From contig NZ_CP039250.1 in assembly GCF_004795895.1 (NCBI RefSeq), positions 248,001-312,000 on the forward strand: DNA of 64,000 nt. The letters are read 5' to 3'. The notes beneath the pieces were generated by a model. That model saw only the letters and a list, made by a program, of their open reading frames with translations. It ran no database searches and had not been told where the DNA came from. The DNA is from Sphingopyxis sp. PAMC25046. Lineage in GTDB: Bacteria > Pseudomonadota > Alphaproteobacteria > Sphingomonadales > Sphingomonadaceae. The position numbers were made by a program, and so were the translations under genes. Shown here piece after piece: positions 22,195 to 59,974 of this stretch (the first letter of the stretch is position 1; every line of letters begins with the position of its first letter).

Positions 22195-23145
22195 TTACGC
22201 GCCCGGCACGCCGAGAAGCTGCGCCTGCGCCTTGAGCCGTCCCGCTTCGGCCGGGTTGGCGGCGATGCCATCCTTCAGCGCCTGCGCGGCCTTCGCCGTT
22301 TCGCCCAGAGTCATGCGGCTGCGCATCAGCATGATCCAGCGGTCGACGTCGGCCGGATTGGCCTTGAGCTTGGCTTCGAGGCCGCTCACCATGCCTTCGA
22401 TCATCGCGTCCTGCTGACCTTTGGGAAGCTGCGACGCGGCTTCCATGTCGGCGCGGCTCGGCCCCGGGATCGCGCGCGCGGCGACGGGCATTTCGTCGGC
22501 GGTCAGCGCGCGCGGCTGCGTGGCGGCAAGCCGCTCGGCGACGTCGATCTTGTGGATCTGCCCGACCTGTTCGATCGTGCGGCGCAGATCGGCTTCCCAC
22601 GGCGCCCCCTGCGGCGTGTCGGCGAGCAGTGCGAACCAATCGTCGAGCGCGCCTTTGTGATCGCCGCCGATGTCCTTTTTCACCGCGAGGAAATAGCGCG
22701 CGCGCGGGTCCTTCGCGTCGAGCGCGATTGCCTTGTCGAAAGCATCCGAAGCGGCGGCGGGCATCGGGTCGCTGTCGCTCGCCATCACCCGCGCTTCGCC
22801 GAGCGCCGACCACAGGCCCGCCGATTCGGGCGAAAGCGCGACGGCTTTTTCATATGCCGCGATCGCCCCCGCGAAATCGCCGAGGTCGAATTTCGCGGCT
22901 CCGAGCGCCGTCCACGCGTCGGCACTGTCCGGTTCGCGCTGCGTCCGCGCTTCGAGGTCGGCGAGCTGGTCGGATGGCGCGGCGGCGGCTTCGCTGGCCG
23001 GACCCGTGGCGGACGGCGTGGAATCGCGCCAGATCGCATAGCCGATCGCTGCGGCGAGCAGGATGAAGGCGGCGATCAATATCGCGCGATTGGTGCCTGT
23101 CATGCCGCCGGTCGCGGTTCCCGTCATCTTGTTGCCCTCGCTCAT
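22195..23145 (-). CDS. Membrane-anchored TPR protein (CcmI/NrfG-like)
   Basis: 316 residues. One membrane helix (AILIAAFILLAAAIGYAIW, about 20-38) anchors a periplasmic region with tetratricopeptide repeats: DSADAWTALGAAKFDLGDFAGAIAAYEKAVALSPESAGLWSALGEARV and later ARYFLAVKKDIGGDHKGALDDWFALLAD. This is the architecture of CcmI/CycH (NrfG), which escorts apocytochrome c to the heme lyase. The general cytochrome-c cluster lies 1.5 kb away, but the link is inference only, since no other ccm gene is in the window. Confidence 0.75.
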   Translation of the reverse strand: MSEGNKMTGTATGGMTGTNRAILIAAFILLAAAIGYAIWRDSTPSATGPASEAAAAPSDQLADLEARTQREPDSADAWTALGAAKFDLGDFAGAIAAYEKAVALSPESAGLWSALGEARVMASDSDPMPAAASDAFDKAIALDAKDPRARYFLAVKKDIGGDHKGALDDWFALLADTPQGAPWEADLRRTIEQVGQIHKIDVAERLAATQPRALTADEMPVAARAIPGPSRADMEAASQLPKGQQDAMIEGMVSGLEAKLKANPADVDRWIMLMRSRMTLGETAKAAQALKDGIAANPAEAGRLKAQAQLLGVPGA

Positions 23146-23301: not shown

Positions 23302-24657
23302 ATGGCAGTTTCGGATCACGTCGATTTTGCGACGTTCATGGAAGGCGTGAAGCGACGCAATCCGGGGCAACCCGAATTCGTCCAAGCGGTGCAGGAAGTG
23401 TCCGAGGACATTTTCGATTTCATCGCCGACAAGGAAGAATATCACGCGCAACAGATTTTGCGGCGCATCGCCGAACCCGACCGGGTCGTCTCCTTCCGCG
23501 TCTGCTGGGAGGACGATAACGGCAATATCCGCGTTCAGCGCGGCTGGCGCGTCCAGAACAACAATGCCATCGGCCCGTACAAGGGCGGCATCCGCTTTCA
23601 CCCCAGCGTCACCGAAAGCGTGCTCAAATTCCTGGCGTTCGAACAGACGTTCAAAAATGCGCTCACCGGCCTGCCCATGGGCGGCGGCAAGGGCGGATCG
23701 AACTTCAACCCCAAGGGCAAGAGCGTGCGCGAGATCATGCGCTTCTGCCAGAGCTTCATGACCGAACTCTATCGCCACATCGGCGCCGACATAGACGTGC
23801 CCGCGGGCGATATCGGCGTCGGCGGGCGCGAAATCGGCTTCATGTTCGGCCAGTACAAGCGCATCACCAACGAGTTTACCGGGGTGCTCACCGGCAAGGG
23901 GCTCGAATGGGGTGGCTCGCTGATCCGCACCGAGGCGACGGGTTATGGTGCGGTCTATTTCCTCGCCAACATGCTCGCGGCGAAGGGGCAGGATCTGGTC
24001 GGCAAGAGCGCGGTGATTTCGGGATCGGGCAATGTCGCGACGCACGCCGCCGAAAAGATCGTCCAGCTCGGCGGCAAGGTGCTGACGCTGTCCGATTCGG
24101 GCGGTTTCATCCATGATCCCGACGGCATCACCCAGGACAAGATCGACTGGGTGAAGGCACACAAGACGCATCGTCGCGGGCGGATCGAGGAATATTGCGA
24201 AGAGTTCAAGACCGCGACCTTCACGCCCGGCAAGACGCCGTGGGGCGTGAAGTGCGACGTGGCCTTGCCCTGCGCGACGCAGAACGAGCTGCTCGGCGAA
24301 GATGCGAAGACGCTGGTCAAGAACGGCTGCATCGCGGTCAGCGAGGGCGCCAACATGCCGACCAACCTCGAGGGTGTGCACGTCTTCAAGGATGCGAAGA
24401 TCATGTTCGCGCCGGGCAAGGCCGCCAATGCCGGCGGCGTCGCGGTGTCGGGCCTCGAAATGAGCCAGAACAGCGGCCGGCGTGCGTGGAGCGAGGGCGA
24501 GCTGCAACAGATGCTCAAGGACATCATGGACGGTATCCACAAGAATTGCCTGACCTATGGCGATCAGGGCAACGGCTATATCGACTATGTGAAGGGCGCC
24601 AATATCGCGGGATTCAAGAAGGTTGCCGACGCGATGCTGGCTTTCGGGGTGGTGTAA
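23302..24657 (+). CDS. gdhA: NADP-specific glutamate dehydrogenase
   Basis: 451 residues, the short hexameric class I length. The substrate-binding motif PMGGGKGGSNFNPKGKS (catalytic Lys) is at about residue 125, and the Rossmann GSGNVATHAAEKIVQLG at about 240. It aminates 2-oxoglutarate to glutamate, in line with the ammonium uptake genes elsewhere in the window and with putA upstream, which also ends in glutamate. ATG at 23302 follows GGGAGGGG. The next gene begins 50 nt on, with no strong terminator between them. Confidence 0.95.
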   Translation: MAVSDHVDFATFMEGVKRRNPGQPEFVQAVQEVSEDIFDFIADKEEYHAQQILRRIAEPDRVVSFRVCWEDDNGNIRVQRGWRVQNNNAIGPYKGGIRFHPSVTESVLKFLAFEQTFKNALTGLPMGGGKGGSNFNPKGKSVREIMRFCQSFMTELYRHIGADIDVPAGDIGVGGREIGFMFGQYKRITNEFTGVLTGKGLEWGGSLIRTEATGYGAVYFLANMLAAKGQDLVGKSAVISGSGNVATHAAEKIVQLGGKVLTLSDSGGFIHDPDGITQDKIDWVKAHKTHRRGRIEEYCEEFKTATFTPGKTPWGVKCDVALPCATQNELLGEDAKTLVKNGCIAVSEGANMPTNLEGVHVFKDAKIMFAPGKAANAGGVAVSGLEMSQNSGRRAWSEGELQQMLKDIMDGIHKNCLTYGDQGNGYIDYVKGANIAGFKKVADAMLAFGVV

Positions 24658-24707: not shown

Positions 24708-26171
24708 ATGACGGCGCACGCTGGGAAGGAGCGCGGCGATCGGCCTTGGGCGGCATTTGCCGCCCGTCTTCCCACGCGCGCGGCATTTGCCGTTCTGGCG
24801 GCGATGTTTCTCGCGCTCGCCATTGCGGCGTTCGTCTTTGCGCCGCCCGCGCGGTCGCAGGGCGAAAGCGGCGCGCGCTATACCGGCGTTGCCTCGTGCG
24901 CTGGCTCGACCTGCCACGGCCGGATGGAGGGTGACGGCACCGTCGTCCGTCAGGACGAGCTGATGAAATGGCAGGAGCCCTCGACCCCGGGCGGTGCGCA
25001 CAGCCGGGCCTGGGCGGTCCTCAATAACAATCGCAGCCAGTTCATCGCGCGCAATCTCGGCATCGGCGATCCCGCCAAGGCGCAGATGTGCCTCGGTTGC
25101 CACAGCACCGCGGGCACCGCGCGCGCGGTGCCGGCCGAGGATGGCGTCGGCTGCGAATCGTGTCACGGCCCCGCGGGCGGCTGGCTCGCGAGCCATTATG
25201 CCGGGGTGGGCACCAACGCCGATCCCGACCGCGAAATGCGCGACAAGCATCTCGCCAACCTGTCGGCGGGGCTCAAGAAGCTCGAGGATCCGGTGGTCCG
25301 CGCGGGCGTTTGCGTCGACTGTCACTTCGGTTCGGCCGCCGACGGTCAGTTCGTGACGCACCGCATCATGGCGGCGGGGCACCCGCGCATATCGTTCGAG
25401 CTCGACCTTTTTTCCTCGCTGCAGGCGCATCATCAGGAGGATGCCGATTACGGCTGGCGCAAGTTCGGCGCGCCGGGCGGCCGCACCGATCATGTCCAGA
25501 TGTGGGCGGTGGGACAGGCGACCGCGATCGAGCGCAGCCTCGCGCTGTTCCAGACGCGGCGCGGGACCGAGGGGATCTTCCCCGAATTCTACTTCCTCGA
25601 CTGCCACAGCTGCCACCGCCGCATCTTCGATCAGGCAAAGCCGGTGCGCACCGGGCTCGACAATGCAGGACGCAACCTTCCCGAAGGCATGCCGCCTTAT
25701 AATGACGAGAATCTGATCATGCTCGCCGCGGCGGCGCGCATGGCGTCGCCCGTGCTCGCCGATCAGCTCGCCGCGCGCACCGCGGCGTTCCACAAGGCGA
25801 TGGCGAGCGACCGGGCGAGCACGGTGCAGGCCGCGGCGGAGCTGTCGCAGACGGTCGCGTCGCTCAAGCGCGCGTTCGCCTCGCGCAGCTTCTCGGGCGC
25901 CGATGCCTTCGCGATGGTCGACGCGATTTCGGCGAAGGCGATCAGCGACCGCTACACCGACTATTCGGGGTCGCAGCAGGCGGTGATGGGGGTCGACACC
26001 CTGCTCAACGCGATGGTGTCGTCAGGGCGCATAACGGTGGGCGCGGCGGCGGGCATCCGCGGTGACATCGACCGCGCCTATGCCGCGGTCAAGGATCCCA
26101 ACGCCTATAAGCCGTCCGAATTCCAGGCCTCTTTCGGCAGCGCGGTGCGCGCGATCGGGGCGTTGCGGTAA
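24708..26171 (+). CDS. Pentaheme c-type cytochrome (cytochrome c554-like family)
   Basis: 487 residues. An N-terminal hydrophobic segment (about 27-47) acts as signal or anchor. Heme sites: an unusual CX4CH (CAGSTCH, near residue 64) and four CXXCH (CLGCH 128, CESCH 149, CVDCH 202, CHSCH 299). Extra histidines (HSRAW, GHPRISFELD, LQAHHQED) can serve as distal ligands. The C-terminal 170 residues are helical with no heme site. It is first in a four-gene operon: the GlcG lipoprotein starts 4 nt after its stop. Probably a periplasmic electron carrier to the outer-membrane partner genes; no reductase or oxidase active site is assigned. Confidence 0.9.
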   Translation: MTAHAGKERGDRPWAAFAARLPTRAAFAVLAAMFLALAIAAFVFAPPARSQGESGARYTGVASCAGSTCHGRMEGDGTVVRQDELMKWQEPSTPGGAHSRAWAVLNNNRSQFIARNLGIGDPAKAQMCLGCHSTAGTARAVPAEDGVGCESCHGPAGGWLASHYAGVGTNADPDREMRDKHLANLSAGLKKLEDPVVRAGVCVDCHFGSAADGQFVTHRIMAAGHPRISFELDLFSSLQAHHQEDADYGWRKFGAPGGRTDHVQMWAVGQATAIERSLALFQTRRGTEGIFPEFYFLDCHSCHRRIFDQAKPVRTGLDNAGRNLPEGMPPYNDENLIMLAAAARMASPVLADQLAARTAAFHKAMASDRASTVQAAAELSQTVASLKRAFASRSFSGADAFAMVDAISAKAISDRYTDYSGSQQAVMGVDTLLNAMVSSGRITVGAAAGIRGDIDRAYAAVKDPNAYKPSEFQASFGSAVRAIGALR

Positions 26172-26175
26172 GATC

Positions 26176-28185
26176 ATGCCAAACAAAAACCGTCTTTTCC
26201 GTTCGGTTGCCCTTGCTGCGATGGGTGCGCTGTTGCTGACATCGTGCGGCGGCGGAGGTGGCGGCACGCCGACGCCGAGCCCGACACCGACCCCCACGCC
26301 GACCCCGACCCCGACGGGCAGCGTTTTCCAGATTCCCGCGCTGACCAACCTCACCACCGGCGACATCGAGCGGATCATCGCCCAAGGCGTCGCCGAGGCG
26401 CAGGCGCAGAATTTTCGCGCAGGTTTCGTCGTCATCGACCGCGTGGGCAATGTGCTCGCGGTCTTCGCGATGAACGGCGCCGACCTGAGCTTGCGCACGC
26501 CGCGCGCGCCCGACGGCAGCGCCACCGACCTGCAAGGGCTCGACCTTCCCGCGCCCGCAGCCCTCGCGGGCGGCATATCGAAGGCGCTGACCTCTTCCTA
26601 TTTCTCGTCGGTCGGCGGCGCCTTTTCCAGCCGCACCGCCAACGACATCGTCCAGGAAAATTTCCCGCCGTCGCGCCTCACGCGCGGGCTCGAAAGCGGC
26701 GCGCTGTTCAGCGTCCAGCTTAGCCAGCTTCCCTGTTCGGACGTGTCGCGGCGTTTCCTCGGCGTGGGCGTCCCAGGCAATCTGGCGGGAACGAAGCGCG
26801 GGCCGCTCGGCGTCGGCGCCGATGCGGGCGCCTTCCCGCTCTACAAGAATGGAGCGGTGGTCGGTTCGGTCGCGGTGATCGGCGACGGCGTCTATGGCTT
26901 CGACACCGAATATCGCGAACGCGACACCGATCTGCGCGAGGAAATCGTCGCGCTCGCGGCGACCCGCGGGTTCGAACCCTCCGAGGAAATCCGCGCCGAC
27001 CGCATCAGCATCGACGGCACGCTGCTGCGCTATTCCGAAGCGACATCGGCCGACATCAGGAGCGCAGCATCCGCGGCGCCCGCCTTCGCCTCGATCAACG
27101 GCGTGGTCGGCGCGCTCGTTTCGGTGCGGGGATATTATGACGCGGCAACGGGAATCGTTGCGGGTTCGGTTTATGGCGCCGAGGAATCGGGCGTACGCCC
27201 CGCCAAGGCGAGCGACGGTTATAATGATCCCGACATCTGGGTGGTCAGCGACGGCCAGGGCAATACCCGCTTTCTGCCCAAGGCGGGAACCGACGCCGCG
27301 ACGGTCGCGCAGCCGCTGACCGCCGCCGAAGTGCGCACGATGCTCGTCGAGGCGTTCGACGTCCAGCGCCGCGCGCGCGCGCAGGTTCGCCGCCCGGTCG
27401 ACAACCGCGCACAGAACACGATCGCGGTGGTCGATACAAACGGCGAGATATTGGGGCTTGTCCGCGGCCCCGACGCGCTCGTCGACGCGATCGACGCGGT
27501 GCCGCAGAAGGCGCGCACGACGGTCTTCTTCTCGAACGCGCTCGCCGCTGGCGACCTCTCGGCCAATGGCGACCCCGCGATCCTGCCGTTTGTTAGCGCA
27601 TTCCGGGGCTTTCTGAACGATCCCGGCGCGCTGACCGGGGCGACCGCCTTTTCCGGCCGCGCGGTCGGCAATCTGTCGCGCCCGAACTTTCCCGATGCCG
27701 AGGTCGGGCGGCCGCCGGGGCCGCTTTCGGTGCCCGAGGCGAGCTTCAGCATATTTTCGACCGGGCTGCAGTCGCGGCTGGTGACCCCCGACATCGTCGC
27801 ACATGTCGAATATATACTGGGTGCGCGACCCGCCGACGTGCCGCAAAGCTGTTCGCAAAGCCCGGTGGTTCCGGTGACGGGACGCAACCGCATCAACAAC
27901 GGCCTCACGCTGTTCGCGGGCGGGGTCCCCATCTATCGCGGGGGCCAGCTCGTGGGTGCGATCGCCGCGTCGGGCGACGGCGACGACCAGAGCGACATGA
28001 TCGCCTTCCTCGGCCTATATAACGCCGGACAAAAGCTCGGCACGCTCGGCCCGCCCGATCGTTCGATCCGGTCGGACCAGATCGTCGTCCCGCTTCCCGG
28101 CGGCAGCCAGCGGCTGACCTTCATCGCCTGTCCGTTCGCGCCCTTCGTCGGTTCGAACCAGCAAAATGTCTGCAGCGGGCTATAG
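26176..28185 (+). CDS. Lipoprotein with two GlcG/HbpS-type heme-binding-like domains
   Basis: 669 residues. The signal peptide ends in the lipobox LLTSC, with lipidated Cys24; a Gly run and a Pro-Thr linker (TPTPTPT, residues about 31-48) space the protein from the membrane. Two GlcG-like modules follow: LTTGDIERIIAQGVAEAQAQ with FVVIDRVGNVLAVF, then a second one from about residue 380 (LTAAEVRTMLVEAFDVQ, IAVVDTNGEILGLVRG, and GGVPIYRGGQLVGAIAASGDGDDQ near the end). GlcG/HbpS proteins bind heme or corrinoids. In this operon the protein could ferry or store heme, or act as a redox sensor. Second of four tightly packed genes; the next start is 6 nt away. Confidence 0.87.
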   Translation: MPNKNRLFRSVALAAMGALLLTSCGGGGGGTPTPSPTPTPTPTPTPTGSVFQIPALTNLTTGDIERIIAQGVAEAQAQNFRAGFVVIDRVGNVLAVFAMNGADLSLRTPRAPDGSATDLQGLDLPAPAALAGGISKALTSSYFSSVGGAFSSRTANDIVQENFPPSRLTRGLESGALFSVQLSQLPCSDVSRRFLGVGVPGNLAGTKRGPLGVGADAGAFPLYKNGAVVGSVAVIGDGVYGFDTEYRERDTDLREEIVALAATRGFEPSEEIRADRISIDGTLLRYSEATSADIRSAASAAPAFASINGVVGALVSVRGYYDAATGIVAGSVYGAEESGVRPAKASDGYNDPDIWVVSDGQGNTRFLPKAGTDAATVAQPLTAAEVRTMLVEAFDVQRRARAQVRRPVDNRAQNTIAVVDTNGEILGLVRGPDALVDAIDAVPQKARTTVFFSNALAAGDLSANGDPAILPFVSAFRGFLNDPGALTGATAFSGRAVGNLSRPNFPDAEVGRPPGPLSVPEASFSIFSTGLQSRLVTPDIVAHVEYILGARPADVPQSCSQSPVVPVTGRNRINNGLTLFAGGVPIYRGGQLVGAIAASGDGDDQSDMIAFLGLYNAGQKLGTLGPPDRSIRSDQIVVPLPGGSQRLTFIACPFAPFVGSNQQNVCSGL

Positions 28186-28191
28186 GCGGTG

Positions 28192-30123
28192 ATGGAAGGG
28201 GGCAGCCTTTGGCCGATCATCGCGACGCTTGCGGCGCAGGGCGCGCCCGGCGCCGATGTACCGCCGCCGCCGGTCGATCCGGCGGTCGCCGCCGATGACG
28301 CATCCGAACCCGCGACAACACAGCAGCCCGCCGACGAACTGACCCCGCCGCCGCCGCCCGTCGAATGGAAGGAAACGGTCGGCGACGATCTGATGAGCCA
28401 GATCATCGAGGGCCGCCGCCGACCCGGCTATCGGCCCGATCTTCCCGACCAATTGTCGCAGGACAATGAGGGCGCGCTGCGTCCGCCGCCCCCGCAGGCC
28501 TTTCCGGGGATGGAGGACCAGCTTCCCGTTCCCGACCGCTGGCGCCTCATCGAGACGCTGGGTGTGGTCAAGGAACGCTGGTTCGATCCCTATCACCAAA
28601 ATACGCTGAAGGGCGACCGGCCGATCGACCGCGCGAAGGTGCCGTGGCTGCCGATCAAGGGCGACGACTGGTTCTTTGCGCTGAACGCGGTGTCGGACAG
28701 CGTGCTCGAACCGCGCACCTTCCCGATCCCCGTCGGCATCCAATATCCCGACCGGCCGGGCAGCAACGACGTCTTCGGCCGGCCCGAAAGCCTCGTCGCC
28801 TCGCAGACCTTCATCGTCGGCGCGGCGCTGATCAAAGGCAACACGACCTACAAGCCGCCCGATGTCGAATATCGCCTGACGCTGGCGTACAACCTGAATT
28901 ATGTCGAGGTCCCCGAAAGGCGCATCCTTTTCGTCGAGCCGTCGAAGGGGAAGACGCGCTTCGACAGCTTTCTGGGCGTCCAGGAAGCCTTCATCGACTA
29001 TCATCTGCAGAACACGTCGGATCGCTACGACTTCGATTCGGTGCGCGTCGGTATCCAGCCGTTCCAGGCCGATTTCCGTGGCTTTCTGTTTCAGGACAGC
29101 CAGCTCAGCTACCGCCTGTTCGGCAACCGCGACAACAACCGCATCCAGTATAATCTGGTCGCCGTCTGGCGGCTCGAAAAGGACACGAACAGCGGGCTCA
29201 ACGACCTGACCCAGTCGCCGCGGCGCGACTGGGTCCTGCACGCCAATCTGTATCGGCAGGATTTCCCCTTCGTCGGGCTGACCAGCGAAATTTCGGCGAC
29301 GTGGAACATCAACCGCGAAGCGAACCGCGTCCAGATCGACGACAATGGCTTTCCCGTGCGGCCGGCGCTGATCGGCAATCTGCAGGGCCGCGACTATGAC
29401 GCGATCTATCTCGGCTATGGCGTCGACGGCCGGATCGGCCGGATCAACGTCACCGCGATGGGCTATGCCGCGCTGGGCAGCGACCGCGACAATGTGTTCA
29501 CGGGGCGCAAGGCGGACATCCGATCCTATTTCGGGGCGGCCGAGCTCAGCTACGATCATGACTGGATGCGTTTCCGCCTGTCGGGCCTCTATGCGACGGG
29601 CGACAAGGACCCCTTCGACGACAAGCAGACGGGCTTCGACGCGATCTTCGAAAATCCGGTCTTCGCGGGGGCCGACACCAGCTACTGGATTCGCCAGGCG
29701 GTGCCCTTCATCGGCGGCGGTCGCGCGATCGGGCTGACCGGACGCAACGGCCTGCTCAACTCGCTGCGCTCGTCGAAGGAAGAGGGGCAGTCGAACTTCG
29801 TCAATCCCGGCACGGTGCTGCTCGGCGCCGGCGCCGATTTCGACCTGACACCGCAATTCCGCCTTTCGGCCAACGCCAACCATCTCTGGTTCGACAACAC
29901 CAAGATACTGCAGGTGCTGCGCAGCGAAGGGTCGATCCCGAAAGCGATCGGCTGGGACCTGTCGGCGGCGGCGATCTGGCGGCCGAAGGCGACGCAGAAT
30001 ATCGTCGGGCGGCTCAGCGGCGCGGTGCTGCTGCCCGGCGCGGGGTTCAAGGATCTGTTCGAGAACCAGCGGCGCGACAAGGCCTATGTGTCGATCCTGG
30101 CCAATGTGATTTTGAGTTTCTAG
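28192..30123 (+). CDS. Outer-membrane beta-barrel protein of the cytochrome operon
   Basis: 643 residues. After a Pro-rich, disordered N-terminal region (PPPPVDP and LTPPPPPVEW, residues 20-60) the rest is alternating beta strands with aromatic girdles (VEYRLTLAYNLNYVEV, QLSYRLFGNRDNNRIQYNLVAVWRL, IRSYFGAAELSYDHDWMRFRLSGLYATGD). It ends in SILANVILSF, with the terminal Phe of Bam-inserted barrels. There are no cysteines, so it is not MtrB itself (which has a CXXC), though a similar role as a porin sheath for the cytochromes is plausible. N-terminal secretion signal is weak (MEGGSLWPIIATLAAQG), so the start needs checking; GTG at 28189 is the alternative. Third of four genes. Confidence 0.8.
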   Translation: MEGGSLWPIIATLAAQGAPGADVPPPPVDPAVAADDASEPATTQQPADELTPPPPPVEWKETVGDDLMSQIIEGRRRPGYRPDLPDQLSQDNEGALRPPPPQAFPGMEDQLPVPDRWRLIETLGVVKERWFDPYHQNTLKGDRPIDRAKVPWLPIKGDDWFFALNAVSDSVLEPRTFPIPVGIQYPDRPGSNDVFGRPESLVASQTFIVGAALIKGNTTYKPPDVEYRLTLAYNLNYVEVPERRILFVEPSKGKTRFDSFLGVQEAFIDYHLQNTSDRYDFDSVRVGIQPFQADFRGFLFQDSQLSYRLFGNRDNNRIQYNLVAVWRLEKDTNSGLNDLTQSPRRDWVLHANLYRQDFPFVGLTSEISATWNINREANRVQIDDNGFPVRPALIGNLQGRDYDAIYLGYGVDGRIGRINVTAMGYAALGSDRDNVFTGRKADIRSYFGAAELSYDHDWMRFRLSGLYATGDKDPFDDKQTGFDAIFENPVFAGADTSYWIRQAVPFIGGGRAIGLTGRNGLLNSLRSSKEEGQSNFVNPGTVLLGAGADFDLTPQFRLSANANHLWFDNTKILQVLRSEGSIPKAIGWDLSAAAIWRPKATQNIVGRLSGAVLLPGAGFKDLFENQRRDKAYVSILANVILSF

Positions 30124-30126
30124 CCC

Positions 30127-33100
30127 ATGATGCGCACGCTCCTCTTCCTGTTTATCCTTATGGCGACGGCGCTGTTCGCGGGTGCGGCGGACCTTGGCGC
30201 GGCCGAAAAGGAAAAGCCGGTGAAGGTCGAATATCGCTTCACCCCGCCCGCGCCGCGCGAGCAGGGCGATGCCGAGGTCGCGGCGAAATCGAACGGCTGC
30301 TATTCGTGCCACACGCGCACCGACCAGCCGTCGATGCACGCGACCCCCGCGGTCAAGCTCGGCTGCACCGATTGCCACGGCGGCGATTCACTGTCGCCCG
30401 CCGCCTTCGGCAAGCCCGAGCTCGGTTACAAGCATCCCGACAATATCGCCGCGATGAAGGCCGCGCACCCGCAGCCGACCTATCCGAAGAGCTGGGGCGA
30501 CACCTCGGCCAATCCGGTGCGCAGCTATACATTGCTCAACCGCGAGGCGCCCGAATTCATCCGCTTCGTCAATCCCAGCGATTACCGCGTCGCGCGCGAG
30601 GCGTGCGGGGCGTGTCATCTCGAGGTGATCGAGGCGGCCGAACGCTCGCTGATGTCCACCGGCGCGATGCTGTGGGGCGGTGCGGCGTACAACAACGGCA
30701 TCGTCCCCTATAAGAATTACGTGTTCGGCGAGGCCTATACACGCACCGGCGAAGCGGCGTGCATCCTCTCGCCCTCGTCGCGTCTGACCGCCGAGGAATA
30801 TAAGGAGGCGTGCAAGCCGAGCTTCGGTTTCGACAAGATCCTGACCGATCAGGAGAAAAAGCGCGGCGCGCTCGCCAAAATGTATCCGCTGCCGCGCTGG
30901 AACGTCATTCCGCCCGGCGACGTCTTCCGCGTCTTCGAACGCGGCGGGCGCAACATCAATTCGCAATTCGCCGAGGTCGGCCTGCCGAACCCGACCGGCA
31001 GCATCCAGCGGCTCGAGGAGCCGGGGCGCCCCGACCTCAAACAGTCGAACCGCGGCCCGGGCACGGGCCTGCGCGTCTCGATCCCCGTGCTCAACATCCA
31101 CAAGACGCGGCTCAACGATCCCTTGATGTGGTTCATGGGAACGAACGACCAGCCCGGCGACTATCGCCATTCGGGCTGTTCGGGCTGCCACGTCGTCTAT
31201 GCCAACGACCGCGAGCCGCGCCACAGCCTGACCTATGCGCAGTTCGGCCGCGACGGCGAAACCGCGACGATCGATCCGACGATCGCCGAAAAGAAACGGA
31301 AGCCCGCGGGTTATGGCGACGGACATGGCGGCGAAGACGACCACCAGGCCGGCGGCGGCCATGGTTCGTTGATCGATCCCGCCGATCCCGATGTCCCGGC
31401 GCGCCCCGGATCGCCGGCGCGCGGCGAATCGGGCCATCCGATCAGTCACGCCTTCACGCGCGCGATTCCGACCTCGCAGTGCATGTCGTGCCACATGCAC
31501 CAGCCGAACATCTTCCTCAATTCCTACCTCGGCTACACGATGTGGGATTATGAATCGGACGCGCCGCAGATGTGGCCCGGCCCCGACAATAGTGCGCCGC
31601 GCCCGCCGGGGATGAGCGACGAGGAGTATCAAAAGAAATATAAGGAGCAGCGCTATCCGACCGCCGCCGAGGTCCACAAGGTGCTCGAACGCAATCCCGA
31701 AGGCGCATCGGCGCGCGGTCTCTGGTCCGACGTCGAATTCCTGCGCGACGTCTATGACGTCAACGATACGAACAAGGATACGCAGTTCGCCGACTATCAC
31801 GGCCACGGCTGGAACTTTCGCGGCATCTTCAAGCGCGACCGCAACGGCAATCTGCTGAACGCCGAGGGCAATATGGCGACTTACGGCACCGACACCGCCA
31901 ACATCGTCGACCCGAAGGACCCCGAAAAGTGGCGCAAGAGTTGTAGCCATTATAGCGACGCCAAGGAGCGCGAGCTCTGCCTTGCGAGCGCCGATTCCGG
32001 GAGGCCTGGCGTCGAGGGCAAGTTCGTCCCGCCCGGGCTCAACCCCGGCAAGACGGTTCATATGATGGACATTCACGCCGAAAAGGGCATGCAATGCGCG
32101 GACTGCCACTTCGCGCAGGACAGCCATGGCAACGGCTATATCCAGGGCGAGGTGGCGAACGCGGTCGAGATCGGCTGCAAGGACTGCCACGGCACCGCCG
32201 ACGCCTTCCCGAACCTCTTGACCTCGAACGTCGCGGCGCGGCCGCAGGGGACCAACCTTGCGCTGCTCCGCAATCCCGACGGCCGCCGACGCTTCGAATT
32301 CCAGTATAATGACGATGCCGAGGTGATCGGGCTGATCCAGCGATCGATCGTCGACCCCAAGCTCGAATGGCAGGTCAGCCTGGTCAAACAGGCGGTGACC
32401 CCGGGGCCGCATTTCAACGCCAAGGCGGCGCGCGCCAAGCTGATGGCGCGTTCGGGATCGGACGACGGCAAGTTCGAATGGGGTCCAGGCGTCGCACGCG
32501 AAGACCGCGCGCACGGCGACGACAAGATGACCTGCTTCACCTGTCACCTCTCATGGACGACGAGTTGCGGTGGCTGCCATTTGCCGATCGAGGCGAACTG
32601 GAAGACCACGACGCACCATTTCGAGGGCGAGGAGACGCGCAATTTCGCGACCTATAATCCGCAGGTGGCGCGCGACGAGATGTTCCAGCTCGGCCGGCAT
32701 CAACTCACCAAGCCCGGCGAGCCCGGCCCGAACGGCGAAGCGCGCGGCATCATCACCCCGGTGCGATCGACCTCGGCGCTGGTACTGTCGTCGACCAACG
32801 TCAACCGCGAGCGCATCTATGTGCAGCAGCCGCCGATCTCCTCGGCGGGCTATTCGAGCCAGGCCTTTGCGCCGCATTTCCCGCACACGGTCCGCCGGTC
32901 GGAAACCAAGCAATGCTCGGATTGCCACCTGTCGGCCGCCGACGACAATAATGCGATCATGTCGCAGTTGCTGCTGCTCGGCACCAATTTCGTCAATTTC
33001 GTCGGCCTCAATGTCTGGTCGGGGATGGAAGACGGTTTCCAGGCGACGCGCGTCACCGAATGGGACGAGCCGCAGGCGGTGATCGGCAGCTATCTGCAGA

Positions 33101-34419
33101 AATATGCCTATCCCGACTATTGGAAGCTGCACGTCGAGCAGAATGGGCGCGAGCTCAAGAACTGGGTGCGCGGCAAGATCCTCGACAAGAAGCTGTCGGG
33201 CGAAACCCGCGCGCTCGAGGAATTCGCCAACATCGTGCAGGACACCAGCGGCCGGGTGAACTGCCTCCAGCAGCGCGGCGAATATATGTATGTGGCGGAG
33301 GGCAAGGGCGGTTTCCGCGTCTATGACGTCGCGTCGATCGGCAACAAGGGCTTCTCCGAACGCATCGTCCGCGCCCCCTTCTCACCGATGGGGCACGACA
33401 CGCATGTGAAGACGAAGAACGCGACCTGCATGGCGATCGCGACGACGCAGCCGATCAGCGTGTCGCGCAACGAGAATATCGTGAAGAATTTCCCCGAGAA
33501 TCACGAACAGGCGATGCACGACATCTATCGTTACGCGGTGATCACCGACAGCGTCGAGGGACTGGTGCTCGTCGACATCGACACGATGGCCGACGGCGAA
33601 TTCCGCAACAACAAGCTGAAACGCGCGCTGACATGGAACGAGGGCAATGTCCTTGCGGGCGCGCGGCACATCACGCTCGCGGGCAACATCGCCTATGTCA
33701 CCACCGACGCCGGGCTTGTCGTGCTCGACCTGACGGTGCCGCTCCAGCCGAAGGTCACGGCGCAGCTGCCGCTGACCGATGCACGCGCGAGCGCGGTGCA
33801 GTTCCGCTATCTCTGGGTCACCGACGCCGAGGGGGTGAAGCTGTTCGACGTCACCGATCTGGCGCAGCCGGTCGCGGTGCCCGCAGGCACGGTGCGGCTC
33901 GCCAATGCGCGCAAAATCTATCTTGCGCGCACCTATATGTATGTCGCGGCAAAGGCCGACGGGCTCGTGATCGTCGATGTGACGCGCCCTGCGGCGCCGG
34001 TCGTCTGGCCGGGGCTGACCTTCGGCGGCACGCTCAACGATGCCGAGGATGTGATCGTCGCGTCGACCAACGCCTCGCTGTTCGGCTATGTCGCCGACGG
34101 GCGGAACGGCATCAAGGTCCTCCAGCTCACCAGCCCCGACAATCCGGGGCTCTACGGCTTCTCGCCCAAACCGACCCCCGAACTGATCGCCTGGGCAAAG
34201 ACGCCGTCGCCGGCGCTCGCGCTGTCGAAGGGGCTCGACCGCGACCGCGCGGTCGACGAGACGGGCGGCCAGATGGCGGTGTTCGGCCGCCTCGGCTCGC
34301 GTCCCTTCACGCGGGGCGAGATGGAGAAGCTGTTCCTGAACAGCAAGGGGACCGTGTACAAGGTTCGCGACGAGGTCGACGAGAGCGCGTGGCGGCCGCC
34401 GCTGTTGTACGCGAATTGA
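30127..34419 (+). CDS. Giant decaheme cytochrome c fused to an LVIVD-repeat beta-propeller
   Basis: 1430 residues with a signal peptide (MMRTLLFLFILMATALFAGAADLGAA). Ten CXXCH heme sites lie at about residues 58, 80, 160, 351, 452, 657, 684, 803, 814 and 930. Between them are a His-rich loop (GDGHGGEDDHQAGGGHG, about 398-416) and long non-heme inserts. From about residue 1050 the sequence shows blades of LVIVD type: GFRVYDVASIG, GLVLVDIDTM, GLVVLDLTVP, GVKLFDVTD, GLVIVDVTRP, GIKVLQLTSP, six in all, as in a six-bladed propeller for cell-surface or ligand binding. Fourth and last gene of the operon, 3 nt after the barrel gene. An exposed terminal reductase or an adhesion/electron-transfer protein is likely; direct substrate unknown. 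Confidence 0.9.
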   Translation: MMRTLLFLFILMATALFAGAADLGAAEKEKPVKVEYRFTPPAPREQGDAEVAAKSNGCYSCHTRTDQPSMHATPAVKLGCTDCHGGDSLSPAAFGKPELGYKHPDNIAAMKAAHPQPTYPKSWGDTSANPVRSYTLLNREAPEFIRFVNPSDYRVAREACGACHLEVIEAAERSLMSTGAMLWGGAAYNNGIVPYKNYVFGEAYTRTGEAACILSPSSRLTAEEYKEACKPSFGFDKILTDQEKKRGALAKMYPLPRWNVIPPGDVFRVFERGGRNINSQFAEVGLPNPTGSIQRLEEPGRPDLKQSNRGPGTGLRVSIPVLNIHKTRLNDPLMWFMGTNDQPGDYRHSGCSGCHVVYANDREPRHSLTYAQFGRDGETATIDPTIAEKKRKPAGYGDGHGGEDDHQAGGGHGSLIDPADPDVPARPGSPARGESGHPISHAFTRAIPTSQCMSCHMHQPNIFLNSYLGYTMWDYESDAPQMWPGPDNSAPRPPGMSDEEYQKKYKEQRYPTAAEVHKVLERNPEGASARGLWSDVEFLRDVYDVNDTNKDTQFADYHGHGWNFRGIFKRDRNGNLLNAEGNMATYGTDTANIVDPKDPEKWRKSCSHYSDAKERELCLASADSGRPGVEGKFVPPGLNPGKTVHMMDIHAEKGMQCADCHFAQDSHGNGYIQGEVANAVEIGCKDCHGTADAFPNLLTSNVAARPQGTNLALLRNPDGRRRFEFQYNDDAEVIGLIQRSIVDPKLEWQVSLVKQAVTPGPHFNAKAARAKLMARSGSDDGKFEWGPGVAREDRAHGDDKMTCFTCHLSWTTSCGGCHLPIEANWKTTTHHFEGEETRNFATYNPQVARDEMFQLGRHQLTKPGEPGPNGEARGIITPVRSTSALVLSSTNVNRERIYVQQPPISSAGYSSQAFAPHFPHTVRRSETKQCSDCHLSAADDNNAIMSQLLLLGTNFVNFVGLNVWSGMEDGFQATRVTEWDEPQAVIGSYLQKYAYPDYWKLHVEQNGRELKNWVRGKILDKKLSGETRALEEFANIVQDTSGRVNCLQQRGEYMYVAEGKGGFRVYDVASIGNKGFSERIVRAPFSPMGHDTHVKTKNATCMAIATTQPISVSRNENIVKNFPENHEQAMHDIYRYAVITDSVEGLVLVDIDTMADGEFRNNKLKRALTWNEGNVLAGARHITLAGNIAYVTTDAGLVVLDLTVPLQPKVTAQLPLTDARASAVQFRYLWVTDAEGVKLFDVTDLAQPVAVPAGTVRLANARKIYLARTYMYVAAKADGLVIVDVTRPAAPVVWPGLTFGGTLNDAEDVIVASTNASLFGYVADGRNGIKVLQLTSPDNPGLYGFSPKPTPELIAWAKTPSPALALSKGLDRDRAVDETGGQMAVFGRLGSRPFTRGEMEKLFLNSKGTVYKVRDEVDESAWRPPLLYAN

Positions 34420-51181: not shown

Positions 51182-55619
<4,438 letters not shown>

Positions 55620-55623
<4 letters not shown>

Positions 55624-56855
55624 GGAATATTCTCCGCAAGGGGAGCCGCATCGAAGCGGCCGGTCAGGCGATCGATCTCCGCGAGCAAATCGCGGTAGCG
55701 TGTCATGGCCTCGGCCCACTGACCCTGGATCTGGATGATGACGTCGGCGGCATCCTGTACGTCGGCGAACAGGAACCCGCCGCGGGCATAGCCTTCGCGC
55801 ACCTGGCCGAGCGTCTTCACCGCCTTGGGATAGACGTCGTTCATGATGCCCTCGGCCCGGACGCGTGCGGCGTCGGCATCGGCGCGCAGCGACGCGAGGC
55901 GCCGCAGCCGCTCGAGCCGGCTCGCTTCGGATTGGAACTCGAGCTGCCGCCGTTCGGCCTGCGCCCGGGCGATATTGCCCTGGTTGCGGTCGAACCGTCC
56001 GAGCGGGATCGAGATGCCGCCAAGAACGGCGACATCATTGGTCTCGCGAAGAAAGCGCGTGCCGCCCGAGACCGTATAGTCTTGGTGCGCACGGCTCTGC
56101 TCGACGACGACCTGCGCGCGGGCCCGGTCGACGGCGGCGTCGAAGACCGCCGCGTCGGCTTCGGCGAGCGGCGGATCGCGCGGATCGGGTTTCTCGATCC
56201 CCTCGGCGATAACGAGGCTGTCAGGCGTGCCGCCCCAGAAGGAGGTGAGCAATGCGCGTGCGGACTGCCGCTTCGCCTGGGCTTCCTTCAGGGCCAGTTC
56301 GGCTTCGAGAATGCGGGCATCGGCGCGCGTCTCGACGAAGAGCGGATCCTTGTAGCCGCGCACGCGCCTGATCGCTTCGGTCCGCATCTCCTTTTCAAGT
56401 TTGACGCGATCCTCTGCGATCCAGACCATCTGCTCGGCGATCTGGACGTCGATATAGGCGCGCTGCACTTCCTGGGCGATGTCGAGCCGGACGAGCCGCC
56501 ACTGCGCCTCGGCGAGAACGACACCGCGCTCGGCAAGCGCCATTCGCGCCTCGCGCTTGCCCCCGCGTTCGAGCGGCTGCGAATAGGTGACGGTGAGTTC
56601 CGATTGCCGGAACAGGCCATAGCCGCCCGTCCCGACGCCATTGTCCATGTCGACCGACACGGTCGGATTGGGACGGACGCGGGCTTGCAGCTGGTCGGCG
56701 CGCGCGGCGTCGACCCCCGCTTCGCCCGCTCTAAGCTCGGGCGATGCAGCGATGGCCCGCTCGACCGCCTGGTCGAGCGTTAGCGGCTGGGCCCAAACGG
56801 ACCCCGCCAGCAGCGCAGCCCCGGCCAACAGGGCGGCGCGCATATGGATATGCAT
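55620..56855 (-). CDS. czcC: TolC-family outer-membrane factor, CzcC-like
   Basis: 411 residues. Signal peptide (MRAALLAGAALLAGSVWAQ), then LTLDQAVERAIAASPELRAGEAGVDAARA and the long helices with periodic hydrophobics of the outer-membrane factor fold. The second half repeats the first, with SIPLGRFDRNQGNIARAQAERRQLEFQ. ATG 56855 has AGGAG nine bases upstream. Forms the exit duct of the czcCBA pump. The gap to the small secreted protein gene is 65 nt. Confidence 0.92.
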
Positions 56856-56920
56856 GAATGATCACTCCTGAACGATTCGACTGAGCGCAGGCCGAAAAGG
56901 GGCCGCGCGGCAGGCGGCGT

Positions 56921-57259
56921 TCAGGCGAGGGGAGGGTTCAGGGGCGGTGCGAGCGCGCGCGAAGCGAGGCGCGTCGCGGGCAACGCAAAGTGCAGGCCGC
57001 CGGAAAAACAGGACAGATCGTCATGACCCGAAAGGGCCTGATCGGATGCGACCGGGCAATTATGGTGACTGCCGTGGAGGTCGGCGTCCTGCTGACCTTT
57101 TTGCGTGTCCTTGTCCGACGCATGGCCCGGCTCGACATGGTGCGAAAGATGCGAATCCGTCGCATGGTGCGTCATGCCCGCCATCGCCGGCGCAGCATTG
57201 TGGAGCCCGCTGAGCAGCAGGATGAACACAAGCAACAGGCGAAGGGTAGCGCCGGACAT
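56921..57259 (-). CDS. His-rich secreted protein (CzcI-like)
   Basis: 112 residues from ATG 57259. The signal sequence RLLLVFILLLSGLHNAAPAMA precedes a His/Asp-rich mature part (THHATDSHLSHHVEPGHASDKD, and LHGSHHNCPVASDQALSGHDDLSCFSGGL). It matches the size and position of the CzcI/periplasmic metal-binding proteins that precede czcCBA in other bacteria. No defined domain. It would bind metals or sense them. Confidence 0.7.
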   Translation of the reverse strand: MSGATLRLLLVFILLLSGLHNAAPAMAGMTHHATDSHLSHHVEPGHASDKDTQKGQQDADLHGSHHNCPVASDQALSGHDDLSCFSGGLHFALPATRLASRALAPPLNPPLA

Positions 57260-57308
57260 GGTCGCGCCCCTAACAGCGAATGACCCGTTCCGGAAGTCCA
57301 AAACCGGA

Positions 57309-57713
57309 TCAATCGGTTCGCGCAGCGCGGCTCTCCGTCGACCGGGCCGTTTCGATCAGCGCTTCGAGGGCCTGCGGCATCGGCATCGGCTCGAAGGCGC
57401 TCACCCGCGCGCGACCATTATTCCCTGCGGGGAGGCGGCCGGTCAGCGAACCGAGCGGGACGAGCAGGAACCGCATTGCCTGACCGGTAGCTTCACGGGC
57501 ATCGCCGAGCTCGATCGCATAGCGAAACATGTGCCAGTGGGAGGCGAGATGCGCGCCCATATAGGGCTGGCTCAATATATGTTCCCATTCCAGCGCCTGC
57601 CACGCAGCGGCTTCATCTCCGATTCGGCGTGATTCGCAAAACAGGCGATATTGCTCGCGCAGCAGCGGCTCGATGACGGCCATGCTCACGGGATTTACTG
57701 TCGGCGGCACCAT
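57309..57713 (-). CDS. DUF3703 family protein
   Basis: 134 residues from ATG 57713. The core LFCESRRIGDEAAAWQALEWEHILSQPYMGAHLASHWHMFRYAIELGDAREATGQAMRFLLVPLG, with conserved EHI, H and GQ, and the tail RLPAGNNGRARVSAFEPMPMPQAL are those of DUF3703, a helical domain of unknown activity that often accompanies czc operons. It is the first gene after the MerR-type promoter. The start is set by the promoter position; the in-frame ATG 57683 is possible. Confidence 0.75.
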   Translation of the reverse strand: MVPPTVNPVSMAVIEPLLREQYRLFCESRRIGDEAAAWQALEWEHILSQPYMGAHLASHWHMFRYAIELGDAREATGQAMRFLLVPLGSLTGRLPAGNNGRARVSAFEPMPMPQALEALIETARSTESRAARTD

Positions 57714-57750
57714 CCTCTTTCCCCCTTTTTTGTGCAGGGCAGGCTCTTGC

Positions 57751-57774
57751 ACCCTGTAGTAGATACAGGGTCAA
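57751..57774 (-). promoter_or_regulatory. MerR-type (CadR/PbrR-like) operator-promoter
   Basis: The minus strand has TTGACC (57774-57769) as -35. It is followed by a near-perfect palindrome at 57751-57771 with half-sites ACCCTGTA / TACAGGGT. This is the box bound by the Cd/Zn/Pb regulators of the MerR family. The -10 falls about 20 bp on, near 57743-57749, with only weak matches. The first gene start is 38 bp further (57713). No MerR gene exists in the window. Confidence 0.85.
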
Positions 57775-57913
57775 GCCCTGATGTTCCGGCAGGACGCTGT
57801 GCCGCTCTGCGTCCGATTTACCCCCTCGTCTCACGGGAAGCATATCGCTCGAATGTCGTCCCGAACAAAGGAGGCGGGGGCCAATAGCGAAGCGATAGAA
57901 ATAAGAGTGAAAG

Positions 57914-57932
57914 ACAATTGTAGAATTATTGT
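57914..57932. promoter_or_regulatory. AT-rich inverted repeat in the divergent czc control region
   Basis: ACAAT-N9-ATTGT in the AT-rich part of the 416-bp gap (57714-58129) between the two czc operons. It might be a regulator site for the plus-strand operon. No confident promoter is visible for that operon; the rest of the gap shows no gene. Confidence 0.35.
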
Positions 57933-58129
57933 GCTTAACGCGTGATTGTTCGGCCGATATCCTGTTTCTTGAGGCGCATCTGCAACTATAGAGGGGCAAG
58001 GTGCACTGCTCTCTTACCTCCATGAGATAAAATTACGGAGCCGGTTCGGGGGTTCGAAGAGTGCCGCCGAAGTTGATTGAAAATCTTCTACTTTTCACCG
58101 CGCCGTTTCGATGCTAGGGGCCGGTTTCA

Positions 58130-58492
58130 ATGCGACGGGTGATCCTCTTCCTCCTGACCCTTCTCCTTGCATCCGGAACGGTTGCGGGGTCGCTCGCACA
58201 TGCGACCGAGGATCGGGCCGAGGCGAGCCTTTTCGTTGCTGTGATCGAAGCCGGCTGCGTTCCCGCACCGGCGATCGAAGGCGCCGAAGTCGACAAGAAA
58301 AAATCCTCTCCCGGCGAAAAGCAGCAGGTGCCTGCCGCCGCTCATGGCTGCCACGGTCACCATTCGGGCGTCCCGGCGGAATCGCTGTCGGCAGCGACCG
58401 AAACGCCTGCCCCTGAAGCGCATACGCGCATCCTGACGGCCGCCTTGCCGCCCGTCGCCTATATCGGGACGTTCCGCCCTCCAATCGCCTGA
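58130..58492 (+). CDS. Small secreted metal-binding-like protein (second CzcI-like)
   Basis: 120 residues. Signal peptide (VILFLLTLLLASGTVAGSLAHA), then a low-complexity part with AAHGCHGHHSG and scattered Ser/Glu. It occupies the same place before czcC2 as the His-rich protein before czcC1 and is similar in length and composition, though not clearly alignable. It would be first in the plus-strand operon. Function inferred only. Confidence 0.65.
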   Translation: MRRVILFLLTLLLASGTVAGSLAHATEDRAEASLFVAVIEAGCVPAPAIEGAEVDKKKSSPGEKQQVPAAAHGCHGHHSGVPAESLSAATETPAPEAHTRILTAALPPVAYIGTFRPPIA

Positions 58493-58557
58493 CGCTCTAG
58501 GTCTGCGCGTGCCCTTCGCGTGCGCTTCTCCCTGGAAACGTCAGGAGTCTCCTTTTC

Positions 58558-59865
58558 ATGAAATCCATAGTTGTCGCCGCGAGTCTCGTGGCGCTCGTTG
58601 CAGGCTCAAATTCCGCGCCCGCCGCTGCCCAGTCGGCAGCGACGGAGCTGGTGGGACCGCCTTCTTCCGCAGGCGAGGCCGTGCGTACCGGCCCGCTTCC
58701 CGCTCGATTGTCCCTCGCGCAGGCGATGGAGGAAGCCGACGCGCGCTCGCCGCGCGTGGTTGCCGCCGAAGCCGAAGTGGAGGCCGCTCGCGGTCGCCAG
58801 CGTCAGGCGGGCTATCGCTACAATCCGACGCTCAATGTCGATGTCGAGAATTTCGCAGGCACCGGCCCCTACTCGGGCCTGAACGGTCTCGAAACGACCG
58901 TGTCGGTCAATCAGCGTCTCGATATCGGGGGCCGGCGCCGGTCGCGCATGACGCTCGCCGACGCCGAGTTTCTGGCCGCGAAGTACAAGTTGGAGATTGC
59001 ACGCGCAGATCTTGCGCTCGATGTCCGCAACCAGTTCGCGACCGCTCTCGCGGCCCGCGATAGCCTCGCGCTCGCACGCGAAAATGAAGCGCGTGCCCGC
59101 GAACTCGTCCGCGTGGCACAGGCCATGGTCGATACCGGCAACGAGCCGCCGCTCCGTGCGTTCCGCGCCAATGCGGCTCTCGTTCAGGCCACCGCCGAGC
59201 TACGCACGGCCGAGGCCGAAGAAAGGACCGCCCGGCGTTCGCTCGCGGCGCTCCTTGGAAGCTCGGTCCCGCCTGCCGAGTTGATGGAAGGCGATATGTG
59301 GGTGGCACCGGAGACGGTGGACTCGCTCGCGACGCTCGACGTTCGCTTGGCAGAAACCGAGAAGCTGATTGCTGAAGCGCGGCTCCAGGGGCAGCGCGCC
59401 GATGGCCGGCTCGATCCGTCGGTCGGCTTCGGGGTGCGTCAGCTTCGCGACACCGGCGATCGCGCATTGATCGCCAATGTTTCCGTGCCGCTCCCCGTCT
59501 TCGACCGCAACCGCGGCAACATCTCGGCAGCCAAATCCGATGTCGCCGCCGCCATTGCGCGGCGCGAGAATGCAGTGGTCAATGCTCAGGCGGAGATCGC
59601 CAATGCGCAGGCCGAACTCGAAGCCGCAGAGGCCCGCCTCGCGGCGCTTGAGGGTAGCGGCATCGAGCAGGCGCGCGAAGGTGTCCGGCTCGCCGAACTC
59701 AGCTACCGCGCCGGCAAGTCCTCGCTCGTCGAATATATCGACGCGCAGCAGGCCTATGCGGCAACGCAGGCCGAACTGATCGCGGCGCGCCAGGCCCGGG
59801 CCGAAGCCCGCGCCATCCTATCGCGCCAGGCAGCCGCCGACGGCGATGCGGATCATCAGCCATGA
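58558..59865 (+). CDS. czcC: TolC-family outer-membrane factor, second CzcC-like
   Basis: 435 residues. Signal peptide (VVAASLVALVAGSNSAPAAAQ), then LSLAQAMEEADARSPRVVAAEAEVEAARGRQRQAGYRYNPTLNVDVENFAG and the second repeat with VSVPLPVFDRNRGNISAAKSDVAAA. Distinct in sequence from czcC1, so the pumps are diverged paralogues and not a recent duplication. The gap to czcB2 is 109 nt with no hairpin. Confidence 0.9.
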   Translation: MKSIVVAASLVALVAGSNSAPAAAQSAATELVGPPSSAGEAVRTGPLPARLSLAQAMEEADARSPRVVAAEAEVEAARGRQRQAGYRYNPTLNVDVENFAGTGPYSGLNGLETTVSVNQRLDIGGRRRSRMTLADAEFLAAKYKLEIARADLALDVRNQFATALAARDSLALARENEARARELVRVAQAMVDTGNEPPLRAFRANAALVQATAELRTAEAEERTARRSLAALLGSSVPPAELMEGDMWVAPETVDSLATLDVRLAETEKLIAEARLQGQRADGRLDPSVGFGVRQLRDTGDRALIANVSVPLPVFDRNRGNISAAKSDVAAAIARRENAVVNAQAEIANAQAELEAAEARLAALEGSGIEQAREGVRLAELSYRAGKSSLVEYIDAQQAYAATQAELIAARQARAEARAILSRQAAADGDADHQP

Positions 59866-59974
59866 GCGCGCCGAGCCTTCCAGTGGACGGAGGCGCCTTC
59901 GCCATCGTCCTTCCAAGTCAACAGGGGTGCGCCGCCGGTCGGCGCGCGAACCGCATCAACAGCGGAGATAGAAT

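Follow-up and report, generated by a model that had tools for sequence, protein, structure and literature searches.

Among the described porin-cytochrome systems, PCC4 of He et al. (2017) comprises a porin, cytochromes with 4, 5 and 10 hemes, and an inner-membrane protein with an SGxxG motif and two WX3HX13H motifs; this signature was given for the membrane protein of both PCC3 and PCC4, for which five helices were reported (PMC5566968). A pfam13247 iron-sulfur (Fe-S) gene lies upstream of the inner-membrane protein gene in PCC4 Subgroup II (PMC5566968). The window analyzed in this study is a stretch of 64 kb from the 4.5-Mb single-contig genome of a Sphingopyxis strain, whose closest named relatives are Sphingopyxis, and it contains an operon of four genes, g1 to g4, for two multiheme cytochromes, a lipoprotein and an outer-membrane barrel. 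The operon is part of an electron-transfer system that is real and conserved but has been recognised only in part, a variant of the porin-cytochrome kind. Comparison of gene sets suggests that it is probably one half, at the outer membrane, of an electron pathway that spans the envelope and is related to PCC4, with flow most likely outward from cytosolic NAD(P)H.

The operon and its inner-membrane module

The features of the operon are as follows.
24708..26171, + strand: g1, pentaheme c554-like cytochrome, predicted periplasmic; four CxxCH and one CX4CH; PF13435 38.5 bits
24897..24917, + strand: fifth heme site of g1, CAGSTCH (CX4CH)
26176..28185, + strand: g2, HbpS/GlcG-like lipoprotein; PF03928 61.1 bits; lipid-anchor Cys24 at 26245-26247
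28189..30123, + strand: g3, outer-membrane barrel; start GTG at 28189 or ATG at 28192; 18 main strands in the model
30127..34419, + strand: g4, decaheme cytochrome of 1430 amino acids (aa) with C-terminal LVIVD repeats; PF08309 42.2 bits, PF14522 28.2 bits
33244..34161 (ends approximate), + strand: LVIVD-repeat region of g4, predicted propeller; PF08309 in two stretches, the best at residues 1261-1292

All four genes are encoded on the + strand with intergenic gaps of 4, 6 and 3 nt, in agreement with the preliminary description of this DNA. Its count of 15 c-type heme sites was also recovered, as 14 CxxCH motifs and a conserved CX4CH. In g1 the CxxCH motifs start at residues 128, 149, 202 and 299 and the CX4CH at residue 64; the latter is kept in all 68 homologues with the start covered (67 CX4CHG and one CX4CHS), and the label pentaheme is therefore reasonable. 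Each of the ten CxxCH of g4 is invariant in a 26-sequence alignment, and near-full homologues of g4 have ten such motifs in 78 of 79 cases and nine in the other. Since the 14 CxxCH of g1 and g4 are the whole CxxCH content of the window in six frames, a chance origin is very unlikely. Besides the LVIVD repeats, Pfam assigns c7/c3-type heme domains to g4. The g2 lipoprotein with Cys24 was confirmed by its lipobox and HbpS/GlcG domain; a loose lipobox pattern is present in 65 of 68 homologues, and the three exceptions stem from over-long open frames or masked bases. A functional clue was sought in the GlcG domain of g2, and none was obtained.

The claim that g3 is a barrel ending in Phe also held. 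Its C-terminus reads ...ILSF, and the model is a barrel of 18 main strands at residues 161-643, preceded by a low-confidence Pro-rich N-terminus covering most of residues 1-143. In fold searches AlgE came first and OprD/Occ substrate channels next; no MtrB was among the 50 matches listed for each search, which carries no weight as a test. A Pfam search with g3 gave no match at E≤1. Sequence searches of solved structures gave no convincing relative for g1, g3 or g4, the best match of g1 being cytochrome c554 (E 0.0032). Assignment of g4 to the Ext proteins of Geobacter was rejected, as NF040943 (ExtM) reached only 68.7 bits against a cut-off of 800.

Relatives were collected by scanning genome contigs with g4, and the best 80 of 330 were analyzed; by title and identity we divided these loci into 37 Sphingopyxis-like ones and 43 others. 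A further locus, L173, did not enter the analysis. The order g1-g2-g3-g4 on a single strand, anticipated in the preliminary description, was found in 68 of the 80 loci, and 11 of the remaining 12 end at a contig edge inside the operon. The metagenome-assembled locus L088 has neither g1 nor g2 in a gap-free 6.1 kb upstream. Genera with the operon include Sphingopyxis, Sphingobium, Novosphingobium, Sphingorhabdus, Blastomonas, Sphingomonas, Qipengyuania and Croceicoccus. We detected g3 in 34 of 36 Sphingopyxis genomes searched, the present one included, and g4 in 66 of 247 genomes sampled from the order (two by short weak matches only). A match over most of g4 also occurs in 11 of 274 gammaproteobacterial genomes, one of them Colwellia echini; identities in other alphaproteobacteria and gammaproteobacteria are about 50-61% for g4 and 30-52% for g1. 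The preliminary description had overlooked the occurrence in these other groups. Five loci of other proteobacteria (L127, L128, L129, L130 and L131) encode proteins that match the heme parts of g4 and not the propeller; these have 10-12 CxxCH and a length of about 760-855 aa.

The preliminary description read the operon as an electron conduit. Its four genes appear to be half of the pathway, and an inner-membrane module at another locus had been missed. This trio of genes lies at 3.140-3.146 Mb of the same contig (C1), with the operon at 0.27-0.28 Mb. The first protein (810 aa) combines a pyridine-nucleotide/FAD-type oxidoreductase domain (PF13738, 113 bits) with two cyclic-nucleotide (cNMP) domains and 4Fe-4S domains; it matches PF13247 with 39.5 bits (cut-off 26.2), and its gene is directly upstream of the membrane protein gene. 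Only its domains are named here because the top NCBIfam match, YpdA, reached 128.9 bits against a cut-off of 339.9. The second is a 293-aa membrane protein with WX3HX13H at 99 and 267 and SGLYG at 140. The third is a decaheme cytochrome with one transmembrane segment at 137-155 and all ten CxxCH after it. Multiheme matches in the genome, of c554 type at E≤1 and c7 type at E≤0.01, are only g1, g4 and this inner decaheme. Both halves form one gene run in Colwellia, which encodes the Fe-S protein, a 294-aa membrane protein, an FHA-decaheme, g2, g3, g4 and g1; the inner decaheme there matches PF00498 with 23 bits, above the cut-off.

The whole trio was found 0.9-3.4 kb beyond g4, in convergent orientation, in 24 of the 80 loci, namely in 24 of the 43 non-Sphingopyxis loci against 0 of the 37 Sphingopyxis-like ones (8-kb flanks, some of them cut). 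Among 12 gammaproteobacterial loci from 11 genomes, the decaheme and membrane protein precede g2-g3-g4 in nine, and the sequence stops too early in the remaining three. Of the nine, six have the Fe-S protein next, and in one the contig ends before it. Co-occurrence was surveyed in 386 alphaproteobacterial genomes, with cut-offs of E≤1e-30 for g4 and E≤1e-40 for the membrane protein, the latter chosen in this study. The membrane protein was found in 35 genomes (19 more have matches weaker than 1e-40) and g4 in 27, and all 27 genomes with g4 possess the membrane protein. Co-loss was also observed: among the 33 Sphingopyxis genomes with a completeness of 90% or more, both halves are present in 31 and both are missing from two (G015 and G017), and no genome has just one. 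Eight genomes have the membrane protein without g4. Four of these have PCC4-type loci (L194, L196, L197 and L198), in two of which (L196 and L197) the membrane protein was outside the gene calls and was recovered by translated search; L195 has a g2 relative at a contig end, L199 is cut, and the other two, L200 and L201, are described below.

Neighbouring genes and a probably exchanged stretch

Further features of the window and of one related locus are listed below.
22195..23145, − strand: CcmH/CycH-type TPR protein (cytochrome c maturation); PF23914 66.2 bits, cut-off 42
23302..24657, + strand: NADP-specific glutamate dehydrogenase, 50 nt upstream of g1; NF006929 724 bits
26000..30400 (approximate), + strand: g2+g3 stretch departing in sliding identity from its g1/g4 flanks, probably exchanged
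L172:9889-10737, − strand: calcineurin-like phosphoesterase adjoining the redox protein with two cyclic-nucleotide domains

The glutamate dehydrogenase gene adjoins the system in 29 of the 37 Sphingopyxis-like loci and 8 of the 43 others. It occurs in other arrangements in the outgroup loci L125, L126/L166 and L154, recurs at L058, L075 and L079, and was found in one of the 12 gammaproteobacterial loci and not seen in L202-L204. Given this patchy occurrence, it is a hint of NADPH supply and not a universal part. A TPR protein of the kind listed was also found near the inner module in 20 of the 24 linked loci, and in every one of the 24 the phosphoesterase adjoins the trio. This phosphoesterase shows similarity to SpdA/CpdA cyclic-nucleotide phosphodiesterases, with scores below the model cut-offs. 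At L047:1093-2526 (+ strand), an aldehyde-dehydrogenase-family gene lies upstream of g1.

Nucleotide identity between the window and L011 falls to 64-80% over g2+g3, against 87-98% on both flanks, and L021 shows 79-88% to the window throughout this stretch. The Novosphingobium loci L076/L077 show 81-84% over the first two thirds of g2, 74-78% over the rest, and about 65% in g1. The allele of the window is thus found in L021 and, as regards g2, in L076/L077, and differs in ancestry from the Sphingopyxis-like flanks. A Fisher value from this comparison ignores kinship and is not counted as evidence. Lipoprotein g2 seems to have been exchanged, fitting a surface-exposed part. Barrel g3 was probably exchanged along with it; its identity to the window is 78-83% in the Novosphingobium loci, hardly above the 78-80% of L011. 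Elsewhere in the window, positions 51182-61144 encode an RND efflux transporter (ACR_tran), two OEP proteins and a CusB/HlyD-type fusion protein, perhaps for metal efflux.

Proposed electron pathway and its alternatives

The observations comprise the gene content, its conservation and linkage, the co-occurrence and co-loss of the two halves, and the fold class of the barrel; from these we infer a complex, its heme contacts, a direction of flow, gating, an acceptor and a manner of crossing the outer membrane. NAD(P)H would be the cytosolic donor to the pyridine-nucleotide/cNMP/4Fe-4S protein, as suggested by the fusion of a pyridine-nucleotide domain to Fe-S domains. Electrons would then pass through the membrane protein, whose four histidines probably hold two b hemes; He et al. 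draw on ferric reductases and NAD(P)H oxidases in arguing for two b hemes (PMC5566968). The membrane-anchored inner decaheme would bridge the periplasm, and the pentaheme g1 would pass electrons to g4, for which lipoprotein g2 and barrel g3 may provide the attachment to the outer membrane; an acceptor would lie at or beyond that membrane. The pathway may also be regulated, as the cNMP domains, the phosphoesterase and the FHA-like domain suggest, and gating by a cyclic nucleotide and by FHA-read phosphorylation is possible. The preliminary description had placed g4 at the cell surface. A 1430-aa decaheme with LVIVD repeats was indeed found, and a surface location may be supposed for it; a lipobox pattern is present on g4 in 0 of 80 loci.

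Several observations weigh against this proposal. The heme density of g4, about 143 aa per heme, is not wire-like, and the model of its residues 20-1000 was unusable (mean predicted local distance difference test score, pLDDT, 48) and was discarded. A simple scan gives the membrane protein three hydrophobic segments, against the five helices of He et al., and the FHA-like N-terminus of the inner decaheme in this genome reaches 17.7 bits with a cut-off of 29.2. The trio is outside the fetched flank in 19 of the 43 non-Sphingopyxis loci. No Fe-S protein is seen in the 1.2-1.8 kb upstream at the two loci of genome G752, and L200 and L201, which have the trio and g1, show no relative of g3 or g4 over 20 kb. 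Among three less complete Sphingopyxis genomes one carries both halves, and G018 and G030 have g3 without the membrane protein. The counts of co-occurrence and co-loss ignore kinship, and the absences in G015 and G017 may be a single loss. Barrel g3 also looks narrow for an MtrA-style insertion of a multiheme protein, and the outer-membrane crossing step is thus left without structural support.

This last point bears on the geometry considered in the preliminary description, in which g1 is inserted in barrel g3 and g4 sits on the surface as in MtrCAB. Gene content and order would suit such an arrangement. By formula, an 18-strand barrel measures about 33 Å between C-alphas, against 47-50 Å for 26-28 strands, and MtrA has a cross-section of 25 and 50 Å (PMC5971433); moreover, no match to the MtrB, MtrA or MtrC families was obtained at curated cut-offs. 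We therefore regard this geometry as highly improbable. What stands of the analogous conduit is an outer-membrane barrel that belongs with multiheme cytochromes to an electron-transfer system; a position of the pentaheme inside the barrel is not supported.

The same proteins might instead work inward, taking electrons from a donor outside the cell, for example Fe(II) or Mn(II), into the quinone pool. He et al. model PCC3 and PCC4 in this way, the habitats of PCC3/PCC4 hosts agree with it, and the membrane protein was likened by them to quinone-reactive cytochrome b (PMC5566968). The fused pyridine-nucleotide domain and the recurrent NADP-specific glutamate dehydrogenase fit an NAD(P)H donor better, although either may be reversible. 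The hosts are, moreover, mostly aerobic heterotrophs, and an inward conduit appears unlikely to us. A different reading takes the locus as a transport-coupled redox enzyme of the periplasm or outer membrane: g3 would pass a polymer or an aromatic, g4 and g2 would transform this substrate with electrons from the inner module, and no electrons would cross the outer membrane. It would account for the AlgE and OprD/Occ matches of g3, for the missing lipobox and sparse hemes of g4, and for an aldehyde-dehydrogenase-family neighbour in 4 of 12 genera (8 of 34 loci). However, besides the redox set, phosphoesterase, TPR protein, glutamate dehydrogenase and aldehyde dehydrogenase, no neighbour family recurs in at least 4 of the 12 genera (one further recurrent row of the table being a shadow frame of the operon), and we consider this reading quite improbable.

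To return to outward flow from NAD(P)H, nearly all Sphingopyxis searched and many relatives have the multiheme pathway intact, which suggests electron exchange across the whole envelope in these aerobic degraders. Second messengers and phosphorylation may control the export of electrons, judging from the cNMP, phosphoesterase and FHA parts; such control is, to our knowledge, not known from other conduits. Genetic work is feasible in some sphingomonads, which brings experiments within reach for a type of conduit so far described from gene comparisons alone. A bolder and rather doubtful extension is a trans-envelope NAD(P)H oxidase, gated by cyclic nucleotides and phosphorylation, in aerobic sphingomonads and many marine gammaproteobacteria, in which b hemes and 25 c hemes would lead electrons to the surface, where metals, quinones or oxygen (giving extracellular superoxide) would be reduced and excess reductant dumped. 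If so, cells for which no use of external acceptors is assumed would get rid of reductant in this way.

Comparison with PCC4 and other described systems

A description of the operon in sphingomonads was not found in the open-licence literature examined, nor was a paper joining LVIVD with a multiheme cytochrome and the outer membrane, or LVIVD with Sphingo. Sphingopyxis and a multiheme cytochrome are both mentioned in a single paper found, PMC8258643, where Sphingopyxis is named once, on acetate pathways; a term search of the main text of PMC4245776 gave no 'Sphing'. The system is probably the same as the 'first group' of porin-cytochrome loci from karst metagenomes (PMC13264449, 2026), compared here by description and not by sequence: that group has a decaheme gene of 4-5 kbp beside a porin of about 20 strands, with a ferredoxin-NADP+ reductase nearby in 7 of 11 cases. 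The main text of that paper does not mention LVIVD, propeller or Sphingo. The system would hence be not wholly unseen before.

Like MtrCAB and PioAB, the locus combines a barrel with multiheme cytochromes; unlike them, its large cytochrome bears no lipobox. The preliminary description had called the conduit different in build from MtrCAB, which agrees with our searches at E≤1. TIGR03509 (MtrB/PioB) is not among the g3 matches, and it was found nowhere in the genome, in a search that had no positive control as 0 of 14 controls reached the cut-off. For the MtrC/OmcA type, g4 gave 9.6 bits to PF22113 (cut-off 30), and for the MtrA/DmsE-type TIGR03508 (cut-off 192.2) g1 gave 13.9 and the inner decaheme 18.8 bits, with g4 not among the matches listed. 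AlgE, the alginate exporter, has an 18-strand barrel, and the g3 model shares this fold class. The identity is 12% and the context is a cytochrome operon, and the shared fold shows no function. PCC3 differs in heme number, its cytochromes having medians of 34 and 21 hemes (PMC5566968) against 10, 10 and 5 here.

PCC4, and its Subgroup II in particular, is the closest described system, a near-match that the preliminary description had overlooked. The PCC4-type loci used for comparison (L194, L196, L197 and L198) were recognised by anatomy and not by the gene identifiers of He et al.; they encode an Fe-S protein (in three of the four), the membrane protein, a decaheme, a g1-like tetraheme, a pentaheme and a small barrel. 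The Sphingopyxis membrane protein carries the SGxxG and two WX3HX13H motifs, and the PF13247 Fe-S gene directly upstream of it recalls Subgroup II. The periplasmic decaheme is of a family also present in the PCC4-type loci, and their tetraheme belongs to the g1 family (four CxxCH and a CX4CH), with 33-37% identity to g1 in L194, L196 and L197 and a weaker partial match in L198. Both systems have an outer-membrane barrel. A more distant inner module, with the membrane protein at 31% and 26%, stands with 4-, 5- and 10-heme proteins in L205 and L206, possibly PCC4 Subgroup I.

The differences lie at the outer end and in linkage, the two halves being unlinked in Sphingopyxis. Where the PCC4-type loci encode a pentaheme of 587-641 aa and a barrel of 526-538 aa, the present system has the GlcG lipoprotein, another barrel and the 1430-aa LVIVD-decaheme instead. 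Against barrels of the PCC4-type loci, chosen by anatomy as above, the profile of g3 gave no match (hhalign probability 0.4), and the profile match of g4 to the PCC4-type pentaheme covers one heme motif only. That pentaheme (PF13435, 33-34 bits) is absent from the Sphingopyxis genome, where PF13435 at E≤1 finds g1 and g4 only. Filing under PCC4 was ruled out by this absence of a second periplasmic cytochrome with five hemes, and the system is thus termed a PCC4-related variant. The inner module and g1 are common to it and PCC4, and the outer end differs. The outer end therefore appears exchangeable, with one inner module serving two different outer-membrane ends.

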